Part shown: one piece after another, positions 248 to 22,300 of the stretch
Layout of the letters: each line of letters starts with the position of its first letter
Numbering within the stretch: the first letter of the stretch is position 1
Origin: Struthio camelus
Lineage: Eukaryota; Chordata; Aves; Struthioniformes; Struthionidae
NCBI RefSeq assembly: GCF_040807025.1
Contig: NC_090943.1
Location: forward strand, 978,356 to 1,042,355
DNA: 64,000 bases
Direction: 5' to 3'
Translations under genes and position numbers: made by a program
Notes under the pieces: model-generated
Databases searched by the model: none
What the model was told of the DNA's origin: nothing
Seen by the model: only the letters and a program-made list of their open reading frames with translations

Positions 248-3200
248 GTGAGACGCTCGGCACGGGGGCCACGCGTCGGGGGGACCTGCGGGCCGAGGAG
301 GAGCTGTGCGGTGTGGCAGGCAAAGGCTGGGCAGGGGGAAGCAGCTCAACAGAAGAGGGGAGTTAAATCCCACCGGCACCAGAACTAGAAGCGAAGTGGC
401 TGTAGCCACCTCCAGAGCAGCTGCAGTCACGCTTCAGTCCAGGAGGAGGAGGCAGCACCCGGTGAATGGCGCGTATCCTCTCCCCACGCCTGACTTGCTC
501 CCCAGCGGGGAGCAGTCAGCGGAGGGAGGAAGATCCTGGCGCGGTCCTGTGGGACAGGCAGTGACGTAGTCCTCCACGCATCAGAAAAGCGCTCGCTGCA
601 CGCTGTGTGCGGGGCGGGGGGGGGGCTCTGTCCCAGACGGCGTTTGGTTAGAGCCCCAGTGACCCCCCACTACCAACATCCTAGTGTTGCAGAGGGCTGG
701 GAATGACTTGGTCAAGTGAACCTGCTTCTCCGGTGTTATTCTGTGTAGAGGAGCAGGCTACGTTGCTCGGGCCCGTAGGCGCAGTTGGTGAGAGGCCCTT
801 TGGAAACAGCCTGCCCAGAAAGTGCTTGTTGGGTCAGACAGAGGAGCAAACTTTGCAAAGCTGGCAGGGGCTGCAGGCACCTCCGGCAGGATCCAAACTG
901 AAACCGGTCTTGAGACGTTGGAGAAGGAGCCTGCAGAAATGAGGATGCACTTCACCAGGGACAAGCGCACGTTTCTGCACGTACGAAGGATGATCCACTG
1001 CCCAAGCTCGGGGGAGGAGCCGCCGGTTAGGTGGCAGTCCTGAGGGAAAGGGTCTGGGGTTTTCTGGTGAACTGTAGGCTGGACGTGAGTCAACAGTATT
1101 ATGCCCTTGCAAAAAAGGGCAAACACAGCAGGATATAGAAACAAGTAGCCGCACGATGTGCAGAGTCATCCTTCTGCTCTGCTCAGTGTCGGTCACGCTT
1201 TGCCGGAGAAAAGGGCAGTGCTGGGTGCTGCATGTCTGCACGTCTGGGCGCTGCATGCCAGCAGATGCGTGGACCCGTCAGAGAAGATCCAGAGGACAGA
1301 GATGGGAATGGCCAGAGGTCTAGGAAGTGCGAGCTGCCGGGAAGGAAGGAGTGAAGCGAGGTTATTTAGGGGAGAGAAGAGAAGATTGTGCCAGGCACCA
1401 CAGGCATAAAAGTCATCCCGGTCTGGCCTGCTGCAGAATGGGTTTAAAGAGCAGCTGGGGGGTTTTGGGCCACATCCTGGGAAAACTTTCCCAAGGAGAG
1501 GGATAAGGAAGCGGTGAAACAGCCCGTCTGCAGCACGTGGGCTCTGTCATTTGGCATTTTAGGATTGCATAATGCAAACATCTGTCGGGAAGGATGGAGT
1601 TGGTGGAGGTACGAGCTGGCCTCTGGAGGTCCCCCTCCACTCGGTGTTTCTGCTGCTGTGATCTGCTCACAGGTTTCTGAAAGAAACCAGTCAGAGAGCG
1701 AGCGGAGCTCCAGCTGGTTCTTGTCTGAGAGCTTCAGAGGATGCTTTCGCTGAGGTTCGGGCTGGCGCTGCGGCGGGAGGGGAGCAGGAGCCCGAGCGCA
1801 GTGACGCCCCGGCGGGCTGCTCCGGCCGTGGCCTCTGCGGTGAGGAGACGCGACGGAGGACCTCTGGAGAAGGTCCTGTTTCCCGCTGTCCCTGTAAGTC
1901 AGCGGGAAGAGGGCAGTGTTGGAGACATCCTGCTCCTGTTGGCTGCCGCTTCTTGGGAAAGCTCGGCTGTGCTGCCCAGCTGCAGCCCGGTGCTGCGTGT
2001 CCGCAGAGCCGTGCCGTGCCGGTGGCAGGAGGCCGGCAACGTTGTTGTAGCCCGGCAAAAAGAGCTGCCCAGAGACAAACCCTACGGGTGACAGAGTAGC
2101 TCTGAAATAACCCGGTCCCTGGAGTCCCTTGCAAACCAGCAGGAACTTTTCCCCCACCCCGTCTTGTGTCCTTGGTAACATCTCCGAATTGCAAAATTTC
2201 CCGGGCTGTCGCAGAGCCTGGCGGCATCCTCACACCTGGCGAGGAGGTTGCTCGGCCCCGGGTCAGCCTGACGCCGCCGCGGCCGCCCGGCTCCGCGTCG
2301 GGACTGGCTCGTGGCTGGCCGGCGGGGCAGAGCACGCGCGGGACTGCGCAAGACCGTGAAGGTGTTTCTTTAGCAACCCCGAGGCGTGTGGCCCTAGGAG
2401 GCCACCTCTGCCCGGCTCCGGCGACGGTAACGATGTTCTGCTTTTCTCCCGCAGAGGACGGGATAGTGATTAAGACGGAGGAGGAGGAAGAGGACGACCC
2501 GGACACTCTGGAGCCGTGCGCCATGTTCTCGGGCAGGACAGAGCCGCCGGCGTTCGCGAGCCACGAGGCCGGGCTGGGCTGCGAGGCGCAGTGCAGCTCC
2601 AAAGCGCCGCCCAGGAGCCTGGCCGCCGGCCGCGTGGGCAAGCCCGCCGCCTGCGACAGAGACCCTGGGGAGATGAAGCCGGTCATCGTGCACCAGCGGA
2701 ACCGGACGCGGGAAAGGCCCTACATCTGCCCCGAGTGCGGGAAGAGCTTCATGCTCAAGATCAACTTCATGATCCACCAGCGGAACCACCTCAAGGAAGG
2801 GCCCTACGAGTGCCACGACTGCGACCTCAGCTTCCGCAACAAGCAGCAGTTCCTGCTGCACCAGCGCGGCCACCCGCGCCGCGCCGTGGGGGTGCCCCGG
2901 CGCCCCGAGCACGGCCTCAAGCCCCAGCCGCGGCCCCCGCCCCCGGGGAAGCCCTACAAGTGCACCGAGTGCGAGAGCAGCTTCAGCCACAAGTCGAGCC
3001 TCAGCAAGCACCAGATCACGCACGTCGGGGAGCGGCCCTTCACCTGCGGCGAGTGCCGGAGGAGCTTCCGCTTGCAGATCAGCCTCATCATGCACCAGCG
3101 GATCCACGCCGGCAAGAGCGACATGGCCTTCCTCTGCCCCCAGTGCGGCAAGAACTTCACCCGGCCCTCGCACCTCCTGCGGCACCAGCGGACTCACACC

Positions 3201-3545
3201 GGCGAGCGCCCCTACCAGTGCAGCCAGTGCGAGAAGACCTTCAGCGAGAAGTCCAAGCTCACCAACCACTACCGCATCCACACCCGGGAGCGCCCGCACG
3301 CCTGCGCCGTCTGCGGGAAGGGCTTCATCCGCAAGCACCACCTCCTGGAGCACCAGCGCATCCACACGGGCGAGCGGCCCTACCACTGCACCGAGTGCGG
3401 CAAGAACTTCACCCAGAAGCACCACCTCCTGGAGCACCAGCGGGCGCACACGGGCGAGCGGCCCTACCCCTGCACCGAGTGCACCAAGTGCTTCCGCTAC
3501 AAGCAGTCCCTCAAGTACCACCTGAGGACGCACATGGGAGAGTGA
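1..3545 (+). CDS. C2H2 zinc-finger protein gene, 3' part (5' end lies outside the window)
   Basis: Two coding exons are supported: 1 (or 3) to 247 and 2455-3545. The first ends at a good donor (CAG|GTGAGA) with one base of a split codon. The second follows a CTCCCGCAG acceptor and supplies the other two bases, giving Glu and keeping the frame open. The protein is probably a nuclear sequence-specific DNA-binding regulator, inferred from the finger array. Both exons carry a VVIKTEE / IVIKTEE segment near their start, and each contains an IKTE match to the SUMO consensus (hydrophobic-K-x-E). Paired acidic exons of this kind are known in ZNF282/ZNF398/ZNF777-type genes. No KRAB or SCAN box is visible, though either could lie upstream of base 1. 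The orthologue is not identifiable by eye. By synteny beside CDC25A it occupies the place of human ZNF589, but orthology is not shown. Further small exons between 248 and 2454 cannot be excluded. Confidence 0.85.
248..2454 (+). other. Intron between the two visible zinc-finger gene exons
   Basis: This is 2.2 kb of GC-rich sequence with no convincing exon and no recognisable transposon. The ATG-initiated frames here are short and lack conserved motifs. The 3' boundary is a pyrimidine-rich tract followed by CAG at 2452-2454. Confidence 0.6.
2455..3545 (+). CDS. Terminal exon with nine C2H2 zinc fingers
   Basis: The exon opens with an acidic run (IVIKTEE then E/D-rich), followed by a linker of about 80 residues and nine C2H2 fingers of the C-x2-C-x12-H-x3-H type. 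They begin approximately at YICPECGKSF, YECHDCDLSF, YKCTECESSF, FTCGECRRSF, FLCPQCGKNF, YQCSQCEKTF, HACAVCGKGF, YHCTECGKNF and YPCTECTKCF. Most are joined by TGERPY-type linkers, the hallmark of DNA-binding Kruppel-type arrays. Between fingers 2 and 3 there is a longer Pro/Arg-rich linker of about 25 residues, splitting the array into 2+7. All Cys and His ligands appear intact. The stop is TGA at 3543-3545. Opposite-strand and out-of-frame ORFs over this exon are shadows of GC-rich coding DNA. Confidence 0.95.
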
Positions 3546-9651: not shown

Positions 9652-12600
9652 GTACCGCCGCCGCGCCGACCGCCGGGCTGCCGGCTGGCCCCCGCCTCGG
9701 AGCGCGGCTGCGGGCCGCTCCCGTCCGGGCCTGGGTTGGGGTCCCGTCCGGGGGCAGGTCGGGGCCTCGTCCAGGTGTGGGCTGAGGCCCCGTCCGGGCC
9801 TGGGTTGGGGTCCCGTCCGGGGGCAGGTCGGGGGCTCGTCCAGGTGTGGGCTGAGGCCCCGTCCGGGCCTGGGTTGGGGTCCCGTCCGGGGGCAGGTTGG
9901 GGGCTCGTCCAGGTGTGGGCTGAGGCCCCGTCCGGGCCTGGGTTGGGGTCCCGTCCGGGGGCAGGTCGGGGGCTCGTCCAGGTGTGGGCTGAGGCCCCGT
10001 CCGGGCCTGGGTTGGGGTCCCGTCCGGGGGCAGGTCGGGGCCTCGTCCAGGTGTGGGCTGAGGCCCCGTCCGGGCCTGGGTTGGGGTCCCGTCCGGGGGC
10101 AGGTCGGGGCCTCGTCCAGGTGTGGGCTGAGGCCCCGTCCGGGCCTGGGTTGGGGTCCCGTCCGGGGGCAGGTCGGGGCCTCGTCCAGGTGTGGGCTGAG
10201 GTCCCGTCCGGGCCTGGGTTGGGGTCCCGTCCGGGGGCAGGTCGGGGCCTCAGCCCACACCTGGACGAGGCCCCGTCCGGGCCTGGGTTGGGGTCCCGTC
10301 CGGGCCTGGGTTGGGGTCCCGTCCGGGGTCAGGTCGGGGCCTCGTCCAGGTGTGGGCTGAGGCCCCGTCCGGGCCTGGGTTGGGGTCCCGTCCGGGGGCA
10401 GGTCGGGGGCTCGTCCAGGTGTGGGCTGAGGCCCCGTCCGGGCCTGGGTTGGGGTCCCGTCCGGGGGCAGGTCGGGGCCTCGTCCAGGTGTGGGCTGAGG
10501 CCCTGTCTGGGCCTGGGTTGGGGTCCCGTCCAGGCAGAGGTTGGGGTCCCGTCCGGGGGCAGGTTGGGGGCTCGTCCATTTGTGGGCTGAGGTCCCGTCC
10601 GGGCCTGGGTTGGGGTCCCATCCGGGGGCAGGTCGGGGCCTCGTCCAGGTGTGGGCTGAGGTCCCGTCCGGGCCTGGGTTGGGGTCCCGTCCGGGGGCAG
10701 GTCGGGGCCTCGTCCAGGTGTGGGCTGAGGCCCTGTCTGGGCCTGGGTTGGGGTCCCATCCGGGGGCAGGTCGGGGCCTCGTCCAGGTGTGGGCTGAGGT
10801 CCCGTCCGGGCCTGGGTTGGGGTCCCATCCGGGGGCAGGTCGGGGCCTCGTCCAGGTGTGGGCTGAGGCCCCGTCCGGGCCTGGGTTGGGGTCCCGTCCG
10901 GGGGCAGGTCGGGGCCTCGTCCAGGTGTGGGCTGAGGCCCCGTCCGGGCCTGGGTTGGGGTCCCGTCCGGGGGCAGGTCGGGGGCTCGTCCAGGTGTGGG
11001 CTGAGGCCCCGTCCGGGCCTGGGTTGGGGTCCCGTCCGGGGGCAGGTCGGGGGCTCGTCCAGGTGTGGGCTGAGGCCCTGTCTGGGCCTGGGTTGGGGTC
11101 CCGTCCGGGGGCAGGTTGGGGGCTCGTCCAGGTGTGGGCTGAGGTCCCGTCCGGGCCTGGGTTGGGGTCCCATCCGGGGGCAGGTTGGGGGCTCGTCCAG
11201 GTGTGGGCTGAGGCCGCGTCCGGGGGCAGGTTAGGGTCCCATCCAGGCATGTGTTGAGGTCCCGTCTGGGTGCAGGTTGAGGCCCCGTCCGGGCCTGGGT
11301 TGGGGTCCCGTCCGGGGGCAGGTTGGGGGCTCGTCCAGGTGTGGGCTGAGGCCGCATCCGGGGGCAGGTTAGGGTCCCATCCAGGCATGTGTTGAGGTCC
11401 CGTCCGGACCTGGGTTGAAGTCCCATCTGGGTGCAGGTTAGGGTCCCATCCAGGCATCTGTTGAGGTCCCATCTGGGTGCACGTTGAGGCCCTGTCCGGG
11501 CACGGGTTGGGGGCCCATCTGGGGGCAGGCTGGGGTGCCTTTTCTCCCACGGCTCTTCACATCCCTCTCTCCCTTCGCTAGCCCGGTCTGGCCACCACAG
11601 CCCACCGCGTCCCCAGTCCCCTGCTGCGTGCCAGCCGGGGATGGGTCTGGGACCCGCGTCTCTAGGGAACCACGGTCTCTCCCCCGTGTGCGGACTGGGG
11701 TCCCCACCGGGAACCAGCTCTGCCGTAGGGCACAGCGAGCAGGAGTGTATTTTTTTTTTGAGTGATACGAGACAGTGCTGATATTTCAAACCTCTCCCCA
11801 CAAATCCCATTTTAATACAAAAATTTGTTCTTAAAGAAATAAAATAAAATCAAATCAGGATTCCAGCTATTCCAGAAATGTTTCTGGACGAAACAGCTGC
11901 GCATCGGCATCTCGCTACCCAGTTTCTCAAATATGTTTGGAGAGAGGTGCCGTAGGTGGGAAGCTGTCTCTGAGCTGTTCCTTTTCAGACAGAGCAGAAA
12001 ACGAAACCCAACACCAAAGTTATCCCTCTTTGCAGAGCAATATTGTCCCCATGGGGACTGGCTGGTGAACAGCAATATCAGCCCTGCAAACACAACCCAA
12101 AATCACCGAATGTGCATTTTTTTCCCCAGGAGATGCTTCAGAGCAATTTGCTTTTCCTCCAGAAAGAGAAGGAGGATTTTAACCCAGAAGGAGAAAAGAA
12201 AAGCGATGAGCTGATGGTATGTTCCTCTCTCTCCATGGGCATGCTCTTCCTGCCTGTATATCCGTATATCCACACATCCTGCCTTTCCCTTTCAGTGGAT
12301 ATATTTATCTTTCTCTGCAAGAGCACTCCTGTTTTCTCTCTCCCAGTGCATCTGTCAATCCCATACATCCTCCGTCCACCCTCCCGTCGTCCTTGTCTCG
12401 TTAAGCCTTAGCTGTCATCCTGGGCCCATCAGTGTCCAAACTCGTCTCCACGCTGCCCTCTCCCTCACTTCCCTCTGGCTCAGTATGCCTCTGCTCTTCC
12501 AGCTTTTCCACCCCAATAGCTCTTCTCCTTTCTCCCATGATTATTTGGCCTGCTCTCGTTAGCGCTGCTTCCCCAGGCAGCGTCCCCGTGCCCACCTGGA

Positions 12601-15600: not shown

Positions 15601-16773
15601 GGCTTAGCGGAGGGGCCGGGGTGGTGGTGCTGGGCGGTGACACCTCTGTGGCCTTGCGGGACGGCCGCAGGATGGCAGCAGAGCATCCTGCGTTAGCAGA
15701 TGGCTCCGGCTTTGCAATGAGACTGCCTGGTTAGCGGGCAGAGCGGGGCCTTGGGAGCGGCTTCTCTCTTTGGTGGGCGCTTGTCCCTTGACAGCGGAGC
15801 AGGGCTTGGCCTGGCACCATCACACGTAACGCTTCCTCACTTCCCCCGGCGATAGGCTGTTCCCCTGCGGCCCTTCGGGTACCCCTGTGCCCAGCCTGGC
15901 TGGGAGTGCTGCAGCTCTGTTATGCTTAAGCCCAGCAATAACGGGGATGTTGGGAAGCAGAGGTTTGGCAAAGCGCAGTGTGTCGGCAGGAATTCAGAGC
16001 ATCCTCCTCTGTGTCAAAGAGCCCCGGGGCGTGGGGACGCTGCTTGGCCCAGTCCTGCTCTGGGAAGTGTTGCTTCTGCCAAGCTTCGCCCGTGGTGGAC
16101 GTGGGGCTGCAGCCTCTGGGTCCCTGCAGGGAGGGTGGGGAGGGTCCTGTGCCATGCGAGGGGGCTGCATGTGCTGCGTGCCTGCTTGCGGGATGTCAGG
16201 AGAGGCACTGCTTTGCCTGTCGGCGGACGACGGACTGACGTTTCCCTCTGTCGTTCGTTAGTGAAGGTGACCCTGGACCCGGAGACGGCAAACCCTTACC
16301 TGGTCCTGTCGAAGGACGGCAAAACCGTGCGTCTTGGGGAAGGACAGCAAAAGCTCCCTGACACCCCCAAGAGATTCACAGGCAGCCCCAGCGTCCTGGG
16401 CTCCCAGGGGTTCACGGCAGGGAGGCATTACTGGGAGCTGGAGGTGGGGGACGGGGACAGCTGGGCCGTGGGGGTGGCCGTGGAGTCCGTGCAGAGGAAG
16501 GAAGCGCTCAGCCTCGCCATGGGAGGGATCTGGGCCGTGCGGCTGGACTGGGATCGCCAGTACATGGCGCTTACCATGCCCCCCACCCCACTGGTCCTGC
16601 AAGAAGCGCCTCGGCAGATCAGGGTCCACCTGGACTACGAAGCCGGCGAAGTGACCTTCTACAACGTGGAAAACATGACACAGATCTTCCAGTTCAAGGC
16701 CTCCTTCACTGAGAAGGTCTTCCCATACTTTTGGCTCTGGTCAGCGGAATCCTATATCCGGCTGTGTGACTGA
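9115..16773 (+). CDS. TRIM-family E3 ubiquitin ligase (RING, B-box, coiled coil, PRY-SPRY)
   Basis: Seven coding exons splice in phase to 512 aa: 9115-9651, 12130-12216, 12643-12873, 13616-13638, 14414-14529, 14997-15029 and 16262-16773. All introns are GT-AG. Exon sizes 231, 23 and 116 nt match the conserved layout of class IV (SPRY) TRIM genes such as TRIM39, TRIM27 and TRIM7. Residues 1-54 are Ser/Arg, poly-Pro and alternating Glu/Ala runs. A C3HC4 RING spans 57-92 (CAVC...CGHGLCAAC...CPQC), a B-box 130-166, a coiled coil about 180-293, and PRY-SPRY 343-512. The RING is complete, so ubiquitin transfer from an E2 is expected; the SPRY presumably binds the target. The B-box lacks one of the usual closing histidines. 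Which TRIM paralogue this is cannot be settled by eye. Confidence 0.88.
9723..11537 (+). repeat. 1.8-kb minisatellite of 69-bp units, each three 23-bp monomers (TRIM intron 1)
   Basis: The basic unit is 69 bp made of three diverged 23-bp monomers. Each begins GTCC and is G-rich: one contains GGGCCTGGGTTGGGG, one GGGGGCAGGTCGGGG, one AGGTGTGGGCTGAGG. There are about 26 unit lengths. Distal copies (after about 11.2 kb) are more degenerate and shortened. Because 69 and 23x3 are multiples of 3, several frames stay open on both strands; these are not genes. One monomer is inverted (10246-10272). Confidence 0.93.
11538..12129 (+). other. Remainder of TRIM intron 1
   Basis: Non-repetitive sequence between the minisatellite and exon 2. 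It ends in a pyrimidine-rich tract and TTTCCCCAG at 12121-12129. No other feature is recognised. Confidence 0.6.
12130..12873 (+). CDS. TRIM exons 2-3: coiled coil
   Basis: Exon 2 (12130-12216, 29 codons) starts EMLQSNLLFLQKEKEDF and ends at ATG|GTATGT. Exon 3 (12643-12873, 231 nt, 77 codons) starts GMVASEREKLQ and ends DIEFLM before GTGAGT. Both show heptad-like Leu spacing and many Glu, Lys and Gln residues, as expected for the antiparallel TRIM coiled coil. The 231-nt size is the family standard. Exon 2 is 87 nt rather than the common 96 nt. Confidence 0.85.
13616..13638 (+). CDS. TRIM exon 4 (23-nt micro-exon)
   Basis: CCTAG acceptor, 23 coding bases (DIDSTLNR with a split last codon) and donor GTAAGA. 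A 23-nt exon at this position is diagnostic of SPRY-class TRIM genes. Confidence 0.85.
14414..15029 (+). CDS. TRIM exons 5-6: linker between coiled coil and SPRY
   Basis: Exon 5 (14414-14529, 116 nt) encodes CETAKAPIPEPVSLELQRRV and continues to AMAEFK. Exon 6 (14997-15029, 33 nt) encodes VNLLNKMDREK. Phases 2-1-1 join correctly to exons 4 and 7. Confidence 0.8.
15030..16261 (+). other. TRIM intron 6
   Basis: 1.2-kb intron with no recognisable repeat or exon. It ends at CGTTAG before the SPRY exon. Confidence 0.6.
16262..16773 (+). CDS. TRIM exon 7: PRY-SPRY (B30.2) domain
   Basis: The exon starts in phase with VKVTLDPETANPYLVLS, the classic PRY opening. The three B30.2 motifs follow: LDP near the start, WELEVGDGDSWAVGVA in the middle, and an LDYEAGEVTFYN plus FPYFWLWS segment near the end. 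The stop is TGA at 16771-16773. All hallmark residues are present, so the domain should fold and bind a ligand. The ligand is unknown. Confidence 0.92.
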
Positions 16774-18385: not shown

Positions 18386-18740
18386 GCCGTGCGGCCGCTT
18401 TTCGTTTTTTGTTTTCTTTCTTTGTTTTAAACCTTTGAAGTTTCCAGCCTGGAATGGCCGTTTCCCACTCGTGGTTATACGCCGTGACTTTATATTTTTA
18501 GGCACCGGGCGGGTGTCGCTTCCCCGGGGGATGCTGCACCCTGTGGCGGGAGGGCGTTTCACCCCAAACAGGACGGGGTGAGAAGGTTTACGGGCCTTAA
18601 AACAACCCTTGTCGCCGGGAAAAAAAAAACGGGGGGAAAAAAAAAAAGGCACCCGGCCTTTTTTAGGGCTGCGACAAGAGTGAGGGGAGTAGTGTGAGTA
18701 ACAGGCCCCCATGAGGGCGGCTTGACTGGAGGCGCCTCAG
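18386..18740. other. Spacer between the CR1 fragment and the CDC25A promoter
   Basis: Contains A-runs around 18620-18648 (AAAAAAAAAC then GGGGGG then A-run). No gene is recognised. Confidence 0.4.
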
Positions 18741-18749
18741 GGAGGCTGG

Positions 18750-18838
18750 GGACTACATTTCCCAGCATGCAACGCCGAGGCGGGCAACGCGTTCCACGCG
18801 TTGCCCGCCTCGGCGTTGCATGCTGGGAAATGTAGTCC
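18750..18838. promoter_or_regulatory. Perfect 89-bp palindrome with two head-to-head ZNF143-type sites
   Basis: The left arm 18750-18792 and right arm 18796-18838 are exact reverse complements over 43 bases, separated by a 3-base loop (18793-18795). Each outer arm carries ACTACATTTCCCAGCATGC, which closely matches the ZNF143/STAF (SBS) consensus ACTACAATTCCCAGMATGC. The inner arms hold GCGGGCAACGCG. It lies about 390-475 bases upstream of the CDC25A ATG. Regulatory function is inferred from the motif and position. Confidence 0.85.
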
Positions 18839-18889
18839 TCTCCGCCGGCCACAAAGCAAGCCCCCCCCACCTATTCCTCGAGGCACCCC

Positions 18890-19087
18890 ATTGGCCGCCC
18901 TCTCTGGCAAAGCCTATTGGCCGCAAGCGCTGTCAAGCAGCCCATGAGGGGAAGGAAGGCGATTCCCGGCGTTTCGATTGGTCGGAGGAAGGAGCGGGCG
19001 GGGTAGAACTAAAAAAAAAACCCCACCCACCCACCAAAGCCCTGAGGAGACGCTGGTTCTGATTGGCGGAGAGGGAGTTTGGCGCCA
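18890..19087 (+). promoter_or_regulatory. CDC25A: CDC25A core promoter: four inverted CCAAT boxes and an E2F-like site
   Basis: ATTGG (inverted CCAAT, NF-Y type) occurs at 18890-18894, 18916-18920, 18977-18981 and 19062-19066. TTTGGCGCCA at 19078-19087 fits an E2F site (TTTSGCGC). There is no TATA box. Multiple CCAAT boxes with E2F are a known signature of G1/S and G2/M cell-cycle promoters, and human CDC25A is an E2F target. The start site probably lies between 19090 and 19220. Confidence 0.72.
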
Positions 19088-19225
19088 GCTTCGGAGCGGG
19101 GGCGGAGCGGGCGGGCGGCGCGCGCGCGCCGGGCGACGGGTGGCGGCGGGGGTCAAAGCGGCGCGGGTTGTTAGGGGGGCGGGGGGGGGAGGTTGCTGAC
19201 AGGAGGAAGGAGTCGGCTCGCCGCC

Positions 19226-19377
19226 ATGCACCGTGCGCCGGGGGGCTCGCACCGCCGCCGCCTCCTGCTGCTCTCCCCGGCGCCGCCCGCCGCCTCCGCC
19301 GTCGTCAAGTCCCTCTTTCCCGCCGAGCTCTCGCCGGTCTCCGACCTCCGCCTCACCATGGAGCAGCTGGGACGCGG
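19226..19377 (+). CDS. CDC25A: CDC25A exon 1
   Basis: ATG at 19226 in GCCGCCATGC, a strong Kozak context. It encodes an [13 protein letters not shown] segment and ends [13 protein letters not shown], paralleling the human start (HRRRLLF... and TMDQLQGLG). The donor GTCAGT at 19378 precedes a C-run minisatellite by only about 20 bases. Residues 1-51, last codon split. Confidence 0.9.
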
Positions 19378-22300
19378 GTCAGTCCGGCCGCAACCGCCCC
19401 CCCCCCCAAAAGGAGGGAGGCCTCGAGGGCCCCTTTCTGCCTCCCCCCCCCCAAAAGGAGGGAGGCCTCGAGGGCCCCTTTCTGCCTCCCCCCCCAAAAA
19501 GGAGGGAGGCCTCGAGGGCCCCTTTCTGCCTCCCCCCCCCCAAAAGGAGGGAGGCCTCGAGGGCCCCTTTCTGCCTCCCCCCCCCAAAAGGAGGGAGGCC
19601 TCGAAGGCCCCTTTCTGCCTTCCCCCCCCCCCCCCAAAAAAAGGAGGGAGGCCTCGAGGGCCCCTTTCTGCCTCCCCCCCCCCAAAAGGAGGGAGGCCTC
19701 GAGGGCCCCTTTCTGCCTCCCCCCCCCCCCAAAAGGAGGGAGGCCTCGAGGGCCCCTTTCTGCCTCCCCCCCCCCCAAAAGGAGGGAGGCCTCGAGGGCC
19801 CCTTTCTGCCTCCCCCCCCCAAAAGGAGGGAGGCCTCGAGGGCCCCTTTCTGCCTCCCCCCCCCCCAAAAGGAGGGAGGCCTCGAGGGCCCCTTTCTGCC
19901 TCCCCCCCCCCCAAAAGGAGGGAGGCCTCGAGGGCCCCTTTCTGCCTCCCCCCCCCCAAAAGGAGGGAGGCCTCGAGGGCCCCTTTCTGCCTTCCCCCCC
20001 CCCAAAAGGAGGGAGGCCTCGAGGGCCCCTTTCTGCCTTCCCCCCCCCCCCAAAAAAAGGAGGGAGGCCTCGAGGGCCCCTTTCTGCCTCCCCCCCCCCA
20101 AACGGAGGGAGGCCTCGAGGGCCCCTTTCTGCCTCCCCCCCCCCAAAAGGAGGGAGGCCTCGAAGGCCCCTTTCTGCCTCCCCCCCCCCAAAAGGAGGGA
20201 GGCCTCGAGGGCCCCTTTCTGCCTTCCCCCCCCCCCCCCAAAAAAAGGAGGGAGGCCTCGAGGGCCCCTTTCTGCCTCCCCCCCCCCAAACGGAGGGAGG
20301 CCTCGAGGGCCCCTTTCTGCCTCCCCCCCCCCAAAAGGAGGGAGGCCTCGAAGGCCCCTTTCTGCCTCCCCGCCCCCCCCCAAACGGTGGGAGGCCTCGA
20401 GGGCCCCTCTTCCCCCTTCCCTCCCTGTCCCGTTTCCCGCTGGGGTTCCTGCCGCGCAGCTCTCCTCCCCCGCCGCGTCCCCCCTTTCCGCCCCAGCCCG
20501 CGGCAGCGCCCCGTCCCTGCCCACGTGCTTCCCGGCGGCCCGGGGTCACACCGTGCGTCTGCCCTGCGCGGCCCCGGGCTGCCGCCTCTGCCCCCACCCC
20601 GCAGCGCCTGCCTCTCCCTCCCGGCGGGCAGCTCTCCTCTCGCTCCCGCCGCTGCCTGCCTCCCGCGACCCTGCGGCCGCCCCTCGCCCCCCGCCTGGCC
20701 GCAGGCCTCGCGGCTCTGCCGGCCTGCTCTCCCTGCTCCGCTCCCCTCCCAGCGCCCGCTGCCCCGGTGCCCTGTCCGGTTCTGCTGTTTCCAGGCTCTA
20801 ACGTCTCTCCTTGTTCCTACAGCAACCTCTGCAGTTTCCCTTACAGGGCTCCTGTCTTGCCCTGGCCTACTGTCCGGTCCTGACAGCCCTCCTCGTGTTT
20901 GTCCTTTACCTCCTGTTTTTATAGCATTCTCCTCTCTGTAATCACTCGCTTCGTGGCCCTTCCCTCCTTCGGATTCCTGGAATTCCTGCAAACAATTCGC
21001 AGCGCGCTCCTGCACGCTCGCTGTTTTATCCTTAGAGTTTGTAGGCTGGCACGTCTTCTGAATTGACCTATTTGATGTACGAGCCGCGCTCGTGTAGCCT
21101 TTCCCTTCCCTAACGTACCAGAGGAAGGCCCTGCGGGACGTGCGCCTGTGCCCCGTGTTGAAGGGGTTGCGCCTGCAGCCCCGTACAAAGCCGGGGCGCG
21201 TGTGACGCGCCCCGGCGGGCCGGCACGGCAGCCTGCCTGGAGCCTCTCCGCCTTCTCGCGGGGCGGCTGGTCCTCGGACGCGTGCTGTGAGTCGGGCTCT
21301 GAACGCCGCGCGCCCCTTCATCTGCAGAGTGACGTAGATCGCGCCGATGGTTACGTGCGCGGGGAAAAGTGAACCTTGGGAAGTCAAAGCTGGAGACCTA
21401 CCTACTTAGAAGGGGAGACTGTTGGAGTTGGACAGTTGGCCCCCCCCCCCTCAAAGTGTAGTTAACTGAGCAGGGCTGCGAAGGAAGGTTACAGCCCCAA
21501 GGAAGACAATGGCGCCCTGATACAGGGGTTTCTAGGGAACAATCTGGGAGGTGTCGATATGATTCAAGGCAACAGTATCCTATTGCACAGTTGCAGTGAT
21601 TTTAGTCCTGAGGTCTTATCACAAGGCCTGTCGCTTTGTTGTGTTAAAACCTTCATTTGTGATGGCACAAGATCAGGATAAAGCATCACTTAAAAAAAAA
21701 AAAAAAAAAGTGGGGTGGGGAACACTTCACAGTTAATGTTATGCAGAAAAGCTTGGCAATCTGGCGCGAGGGGGCCAGAAGGGCTTCCAGGAAAGTCTTA
21801 ACGGGCTGTTTCTATCCCTCTGTCAGTCTGACTCTTAATTTTGGTGGTCTAATTTCTAGTGTTATCAATACTGCATTTTAGAATTAAAAAACCAAGTTCC
21901 TGCAGACAATAGATGTGAGCATAGTTGGAAGTGTGGTGGGGTGTGTGATGTATCTGCTGTTTAGCACACAAAAGGCTTCAGTCTGCAGGGTTACCAAGCT
22001 GGAATCCTTTCACTTAGCCAAGAAGTGTTATACTTGCGTTGCGTTACCACATTCATGCACTGTTATGTTGTATTTCTCACTTTGCTGAACGCTTAAAACA
22101 ACAAAAAAATTCTGTCTTTCTTTACAGTCAGCATGACGATTCTGAAAAAGTCTTGGGAAATAAGAATAGTAATGGTTTACAGAGAACAGTGTCATCGGAA
22201 TCAACTGACTCAGGTATGGCTTTTGCAGTTACTAAGTAAATAATGAGTATGGAGCGAAATGCATGATATCTTCTTTACTTGCCTTTTACTGTGAGCAGCG

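Follow-up and report, generated by a model that had tools for sequence, protein, structure and literature searches.

A perfect palindrome in the CDC25A promoter region carries two convergent M4/SBS sites, a pairing that recurs in the genome

The closest described system to the element reported here is the M4/SBS2 composite motif of THAP11, HCF-1, and ZNF143. The promoter of human CDC25A has been published as an M4 promoter to which THAP11, HCF-1, Ikaros, and NFKB1 bind, and THAP11 knockdown reproducibly altered the human CDC25A transcript level; relative to the TSS, M4 sites are most frequent near -89 (PMC5006282). THAP11 homodimerizes and is a binding partner of HCF-1 (PMC6944463), and ZNF143 stimulates initiation and is typically bound upstream of the start (preprint PMC11118474). 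The locus described here agrees with the M4/SBS2 motif in the sequence of the site, in its placement in a CpG-island promoter, and in CDC25A as the target. In contrast, M4 is termed not palindromic (PMC5006282), whereas here two sites face each other within a perfect palindrome.

The second relevant system is short-range template switching or quasi-palindrome conversion, which creates inverted copies of this kind (PMC7954356, PMC8794818, PMC13334657). In great apes, 4,017 significant template-switch events have been counted, and the 1,503 best-supported ones have a median copy of 12 bp and a longest copy of 128 bp (PMC7954356). The CDC25A palindrome resembles such events in its perfect inverted copy (43/43), its tiny loop (3 nt), its size within the range of up to 128 bp, and its sharp ends, since the symmetry stops abruptly and the two 40-base flanks match at only 9/40 positions. 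However, the CDC25A copy exceeds the published 12-bp median, and the event is read here from its end product. Small inverted triplications are also comparable: they have short reverse-complementary junctions with a median of 6 bp, and a 6-bp ACGCGT seed is found here (PMC13334657). They differ in that no flanking direct duplication was seen at CDC25A, and in that their median arms are 148-160 bp and their spacer 30, against 43 and 3 in our case (PMC13334657).

The window, that is, the whole 64-kb stretch of DNA that was analysed, lies in contig C2 of the searched genome, a 1.45-Gb assembly of 262 contigs with chromosome-size ones among them. The features around the palindrome are as follows.

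18401..19400, no strand: CpG island of approximately 1 kb enclosing the palindrome, CpG o/e 0.78-1.04 per 200 bp
18750..18792, plus strand: left arm of the palindrome, pairs perfectly with the right arm
18752..18770, plus strand: composite M4/SBS site ACTACATTTCCCAGCATGC (19-mer), THAP11 half ACTACA and ZNF143 core
18793..18795, no strand: loop TCC of the palindrome, ACGCGT on either side, possible fold-back seed ACGCGT-TCC-ACGCGT
18796..18838, minus strand: right arm of the palindrome, exact reverse complement of the left arm
18818..18836, minus strand: second composite M4/SBS site ACTACATTTCCCAGCATGC, convergent with the first, 66 bp start to start
18890, 18916, 18977, and 19062 (span 18890..19066), plus strand: four ATTGG boxes (inverted CCAAT), pattern matches only
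19078..19085, plus strand: E2F-like site TTTGGCGC, pattern match only
19226..19377, plus strand: coding part of CDC25A exon 1, ATG at 19226, ending MEQLGR

The gene downstream of the palindrome is CDC25A, as the original prediction held. Its last exon matched M-phase inducer phosphatase 1 best (E 2.4e-24), followed by CDC25B (phosphatase 2; E 1.6e-16), and of the four CDC25A frames compared with Pfam, one matched M-inducer_phosp, one gave a sub-cutoff Rhodanese match, and two gave no match. Judged by eye, exon 1 appears to end at a GT donor at 19378. The start codon is 432 bp downstream of the palindrome centre, and the two sites are located approximately 390-470 bp from the ATG. This distance is counted from the ATG and not from the TSS, but set beside the usual M4 position near -89 it speaks against the promoter-element reading favored below. 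A literature search on the chicken CDC25A promoter found nothing on that promoter. Upstream of the palindrome lies what we take to be CR1-like sequence, which together with the chromosome sizes of the assembly suggests a bird genome. Intron 1 of CDC25A contains, shortly past exon 1, a 45-bp minisatellite of approximately 22 copies (window 19398-20408). Elsewhere in the window, a 69-bp GC-rich minisatellite (9719-11535) lies beside a stretch that by eye resembles a RING domain and is followed by a PRY/SPRY frame at 15856-16773, indicating a TRIM-like gene, and the unit of an 84-bp repeat at 3144-3542 resembles, on visual inspection, a C2H2 zinc-finger gene.

Each arm of the palindrome carries one composite site, on opposite strands, which bears out the claim of two head-to-head ZNF143-type sites. 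The M4 consensus ACTAYRNNNCCCR occurs exactly at 18752 on the plus strand and at 18824-18836 on the minus strand, and nowhere else in the 64-kb window; a third match to ACTACATTTCCCAGCATGC in the window, at 21919, has 3 mismatches. The SBS core consensus YWCCCRNMATSCMYYRCR is satisfied at 16/18 positions, and ACTACA is present. An SBS score of 16 was also reached at 13 other places in the window, and at 3.8 per 64 kb in shuffled sequence. Because the SBS score by itself is not significant, our site call rests on the composite of M4 and SBS. The composite pattern ACTACANNTCCCAGNATGC had 175 matches in 1.45 Gb, while the reversed control had 0, and 22/28 distinct loci that were fetched are GC- and CpG-rich (GC at least 0.55, CpG o/e at least 0.6). 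Two points of the original prediction need to be reworded. The sites were described as facing outward; the ACTACA ends are indeed the outer ones, but each motif is read toward the loop, so that the two are convergent. They were also labelled ZNF143/STAF-like, which is correct for the ZNF143-type core; however, the site is better named an M4/SBS composite, for which THAP11 and HCF-1 are equally relevant.

Direct inspection of the 64-kb window confirmed a flawless palindrome with 43/43 complementary positions in the arms and the 3-nt loop TCC. No other perfect inverted repeat in the window with a loop of up to 60 is as long, and the six others of at least 14 nt (33, 28, 16, 16, 16, and 14) all fall within repetitive DNA at 9.1-10.4 kb. 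A zero-mismatch promoter repeat of this length is unusual, as had been supposed: random base order would give approximately 5e-20 repeats with 43-nt arms in a 64-kb window, and in 20 other places of the genome, 200 kb in total, the sole perfect inverted repeat (at least 12 nt, loop up to 10) had 12 nt. The 201-bp neighbourhood of the palindrome matched only itself in the genome, in both orientations, a result that is no proof of rarity.

Our analysis revealed that the convergent pairing of M4/SBS sites recurs in this genome, an observation that is new here and that the original prediction had missed. Perfect sites were taken from the matches listed (100/175 for the main pattern) and formed three sets with a total of 55; a partner was a site with a score of at least 13 of 16 informative bases, and it was set 1 that first brought out both this threshold and the peak in distance. 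Set 1 comprised 28 loci (30 fetched, 2 duplicates dropped) with 1.5 kb on each side. Its convergent partners were at 63, 64, 65, 65, 66, 66, 77, 78, 86, 120, and 284 bp, so that 9 fell at 44-87 bp and 6 of them at 63-66, and 100 block shuffles gave an expectation of 0.0 convergent partners at 61-70 bp. Four divergent partners were found in this set, at 58, 70, 70, and 72 bp, and tandem partners, listed without the array L037, were at scattered distances. Two further convergent pairs in set 1 loci without the anchor site, at 64 (L035) and 70 bp (L049), were not counted. A frame at L049, beside its convergent pair, resembles a kinesin KIF13 start.

Set 2 consisted of 19 further sites in list order, of which only the convergent side was fetched; C5:2905442 and C5:2905751 (a repeat) and C5:7421871 (40 bp from a used site) were skipped. 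Within the fetched stretch, 7 convergent partners (63, 65, 66, 66, 67, 75, and 85) were found against 1 tandem partner (60). Set 3 consisted of 8 sites, with the stretch restricted to 44-87 bp and with C7:110596 and C7:110905, the same repeat as on C5, skipped. It gave 1 convergent (66) against 1 tandem partner (59), together with sub-threshold matches (score 12) at 55 and 65 bp, and for one of its sites a convergent partner lies 91 bp away, beyond the fetched stretch. When the three sets were pooled, 17/55 sites, including CDC25A, had a convergent partner at 44-87 bp, and 12/17 of these partners were at 63-67 bp (p 1.7e-8 if distances were spread uniformly over 44-87). When set 1 was used to fix the range at 63-66, sets 2 and 3 gave 5/8 (p 2.7e-4). 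A pair on C25 (L072, 63 bp) was chosen for being a pair and stands outside the 55.

A check by position, independent of the sequences, used six site variants, for which 327 of 402 matches were listed. Among the matches listed, 14 convergent pairs were found within 150 bp (43, 50, 62, 63, 63, 65, 66, 66, 67, 75, 87, 91, 97, and 147), against 1 divergent pair (122); one more divergent pair was at 185 bp. The peak at 62-67 bp held 7/14 of these convergent pairs (p 1.1e-6), and 6/13 when CDC25A was excluded (p 1.2e-5), again among the matches listed. The two counts overlap, since 6 of the 14 pairs are also among the 17. Tandem pairs were commoner among the matches listed, with 63 within 150 bp, many of them from arrays; those at 61-66 bp came from 6 contigs and were mostly arrays. 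Because the divergent partners of set 1 lie at 58-72 bp and tandem pairs also occur at 61-66 bp, distance may be more important than orientation. No published description of such paired M4/SBS sites was found among the titles and opening parts of abstracts that were screened.

Outside the peak, convergent distances were 43, 50, 70, 75, 77, 78, 85, 86, 87, 91, 97, 120, 147, and 284 bp. Helical phasing was considered and rejected: the Rayleigh test was strong with the first 17 distances, but the signal was driven by the 63-67 cluster, and the off-cluster distances at 43-97 were unphased (p 0.35).

M4/SBS-like sites also form tandem arrays, at C33:133165-133708, C36:746799-750542, C177:17628-17894, C24:3052031-3052339, and L037. 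Many neighbours in these arrays are 31-63 bp apart, and the arrays are minisatellites built of transcription factor sites. Separately, the same two site variants occur together at C5:2905442/2905751, C7:110596/110905, C8:39190597/39190841, and C9:34325680/34325798, near the contig end on three of these four contigs. This two-variant unit is probably a repeat that carries M4/SBS sites.

The best reading of the palindrome is a recent inverted duplication, probably by template switch, in which the paired sites constitute an ordinary activator module. The earlier proposal that it either formed recently or is maintained is plausible. We favor, with reasonable though limited confidence, a proximal promoter element of CDC25A in which two identical convergent M4/SBS sites, placed 66 bp apart by this duplication, are bound by cooperating activators. 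In this mechanism, a single event, likeliest fold-back template switching in replication with ACGCGT-TCC-ACGCGT as the seed, would have turned one existing site into a mirrored pair by copying it. Each site may be bound by ZNF143 and/or by THAP11 with HCF-1, the latter two being the proteins that occupy human CDC25A. Two facing sites approximately six helical turns apart could bind cooperatively, for example via the THAP11 homodimer or HCF-1, and cooperative binding would raise initiation at CDC25A. The cruciform would then be a by-product of the duplication.

The duplication may instead be neutral, with one site being enough and the mirror copy having no effect, which we regard as rather unlikely but the most serious of the alternatives. 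Short-range template switches are common (PMC7954356), and 38/55 sites lack a convergent partner at 44-87 bp. However, the copy at CDC25A landed inside the recurring convergent spacing of 62-67 bp, although luck could account for this in one event.

It is improbable that the structure itself is functional, as a promoter cruciform or an upstream-antisense RNA hairpin that regulates transcription or replication. The hairpin is predicted to be very stable, with -63.6 kcal/mol (z -18) for the single-strand DNA fold and -100.6 kcal/mol for the RNA fold. However, GC-rich centres extrude poorly, and the whole window had no match to Rfam at gathering scores. The other pairs also argue against this possibility. 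Compared with its own reverse complement, the CDC25A interior scored 41 against a null mean of 10, and it is the sole near-perfect palindrome among the interiors of 18 convergent pairs; of the 17 others, only 3 are weakly self-complementary (L059, p 0.01; L066, p 0.025; L049, p 0.03). Since so few interiors are self-complementary, the recurring feature is the pair of sites and not the structure, and a role for the cruciform is not needed. The weak self-complementarity is compatible with some older pairs sharing the origin of the CDC25A pair.

The interiors also bear on the very unlikely reading that an old inverted-repeat transposon (MITE) with M4/SBS ends, possibly of the P-element/THAP kind, left the pairs behind. 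The inverted ends are alike in length, and THAP domains are homologous to the DNA-binding domain of P-element transposase (PMC7776569). Furthermore, the convergent pairs L063 and L067, both in low-CpG DNA, have similar ends and interiors that resemble each other weakly, and the two are possibly related. In contrast, the 18 interiors are mostly unrelated: 13/153 comparisons reached p of 0.05 or less, slightly over chance (8.5% vs 5%). A MITE would be expected in multiple related copies, whereas genome searches with the CDC25A stretch and with the L063 element returned no match besides the query itself, which is likewise no proof of rarity. No target-site duplication was evident by eye beside 10 pairs, though old duplications decay.

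An assembly or library artefact, in which one arm was folded back, is equally hard to credit: the palindrome is perfect, as a fold-back would be, but fold-backs that arise as artefacts are usually much longer, contigs of chromosome size are present in the assembly, and the CDC25A spacing is shared by other pairs whose interiors differ. Finally, the chromatin-loop anchoring by ZNF143 that had been raised is not supported: the locus has the motif family in common with the reported anchors, but the looping role in general has been attributed to an antibody cross-reacting with CTCF (PMC11687419).

This study also suggests a wider reading of the paired sites, which we put forward tentatively and consider possible but less than probable. 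Convergent M4/SBS pairs approximately 65 bp apart may be a selected promoter architecture in birds, held by a bridged THAP11-ZNF143-HCF-1 complex, to which a template switch has added a pair at CDC25A. If so, the bridged complex would read two inverted sites as one unit, in a manner reminiscent of P-element transposase, a THAP-domain protein that brings two inverted ends together. Template switches that form palindromes would be one birth route of new pairs, and CDC25A would be a newborn pair whose interior is still undecayed. A single odd palindrome thus leads to a testable rule, namely whether ZNF143/THAP11 sites function in pairs with a set orientation and spacing, and it raises the question of whether replication slips may be a source of ready-made paired sites for the promoters of essential cell-cycle genes.
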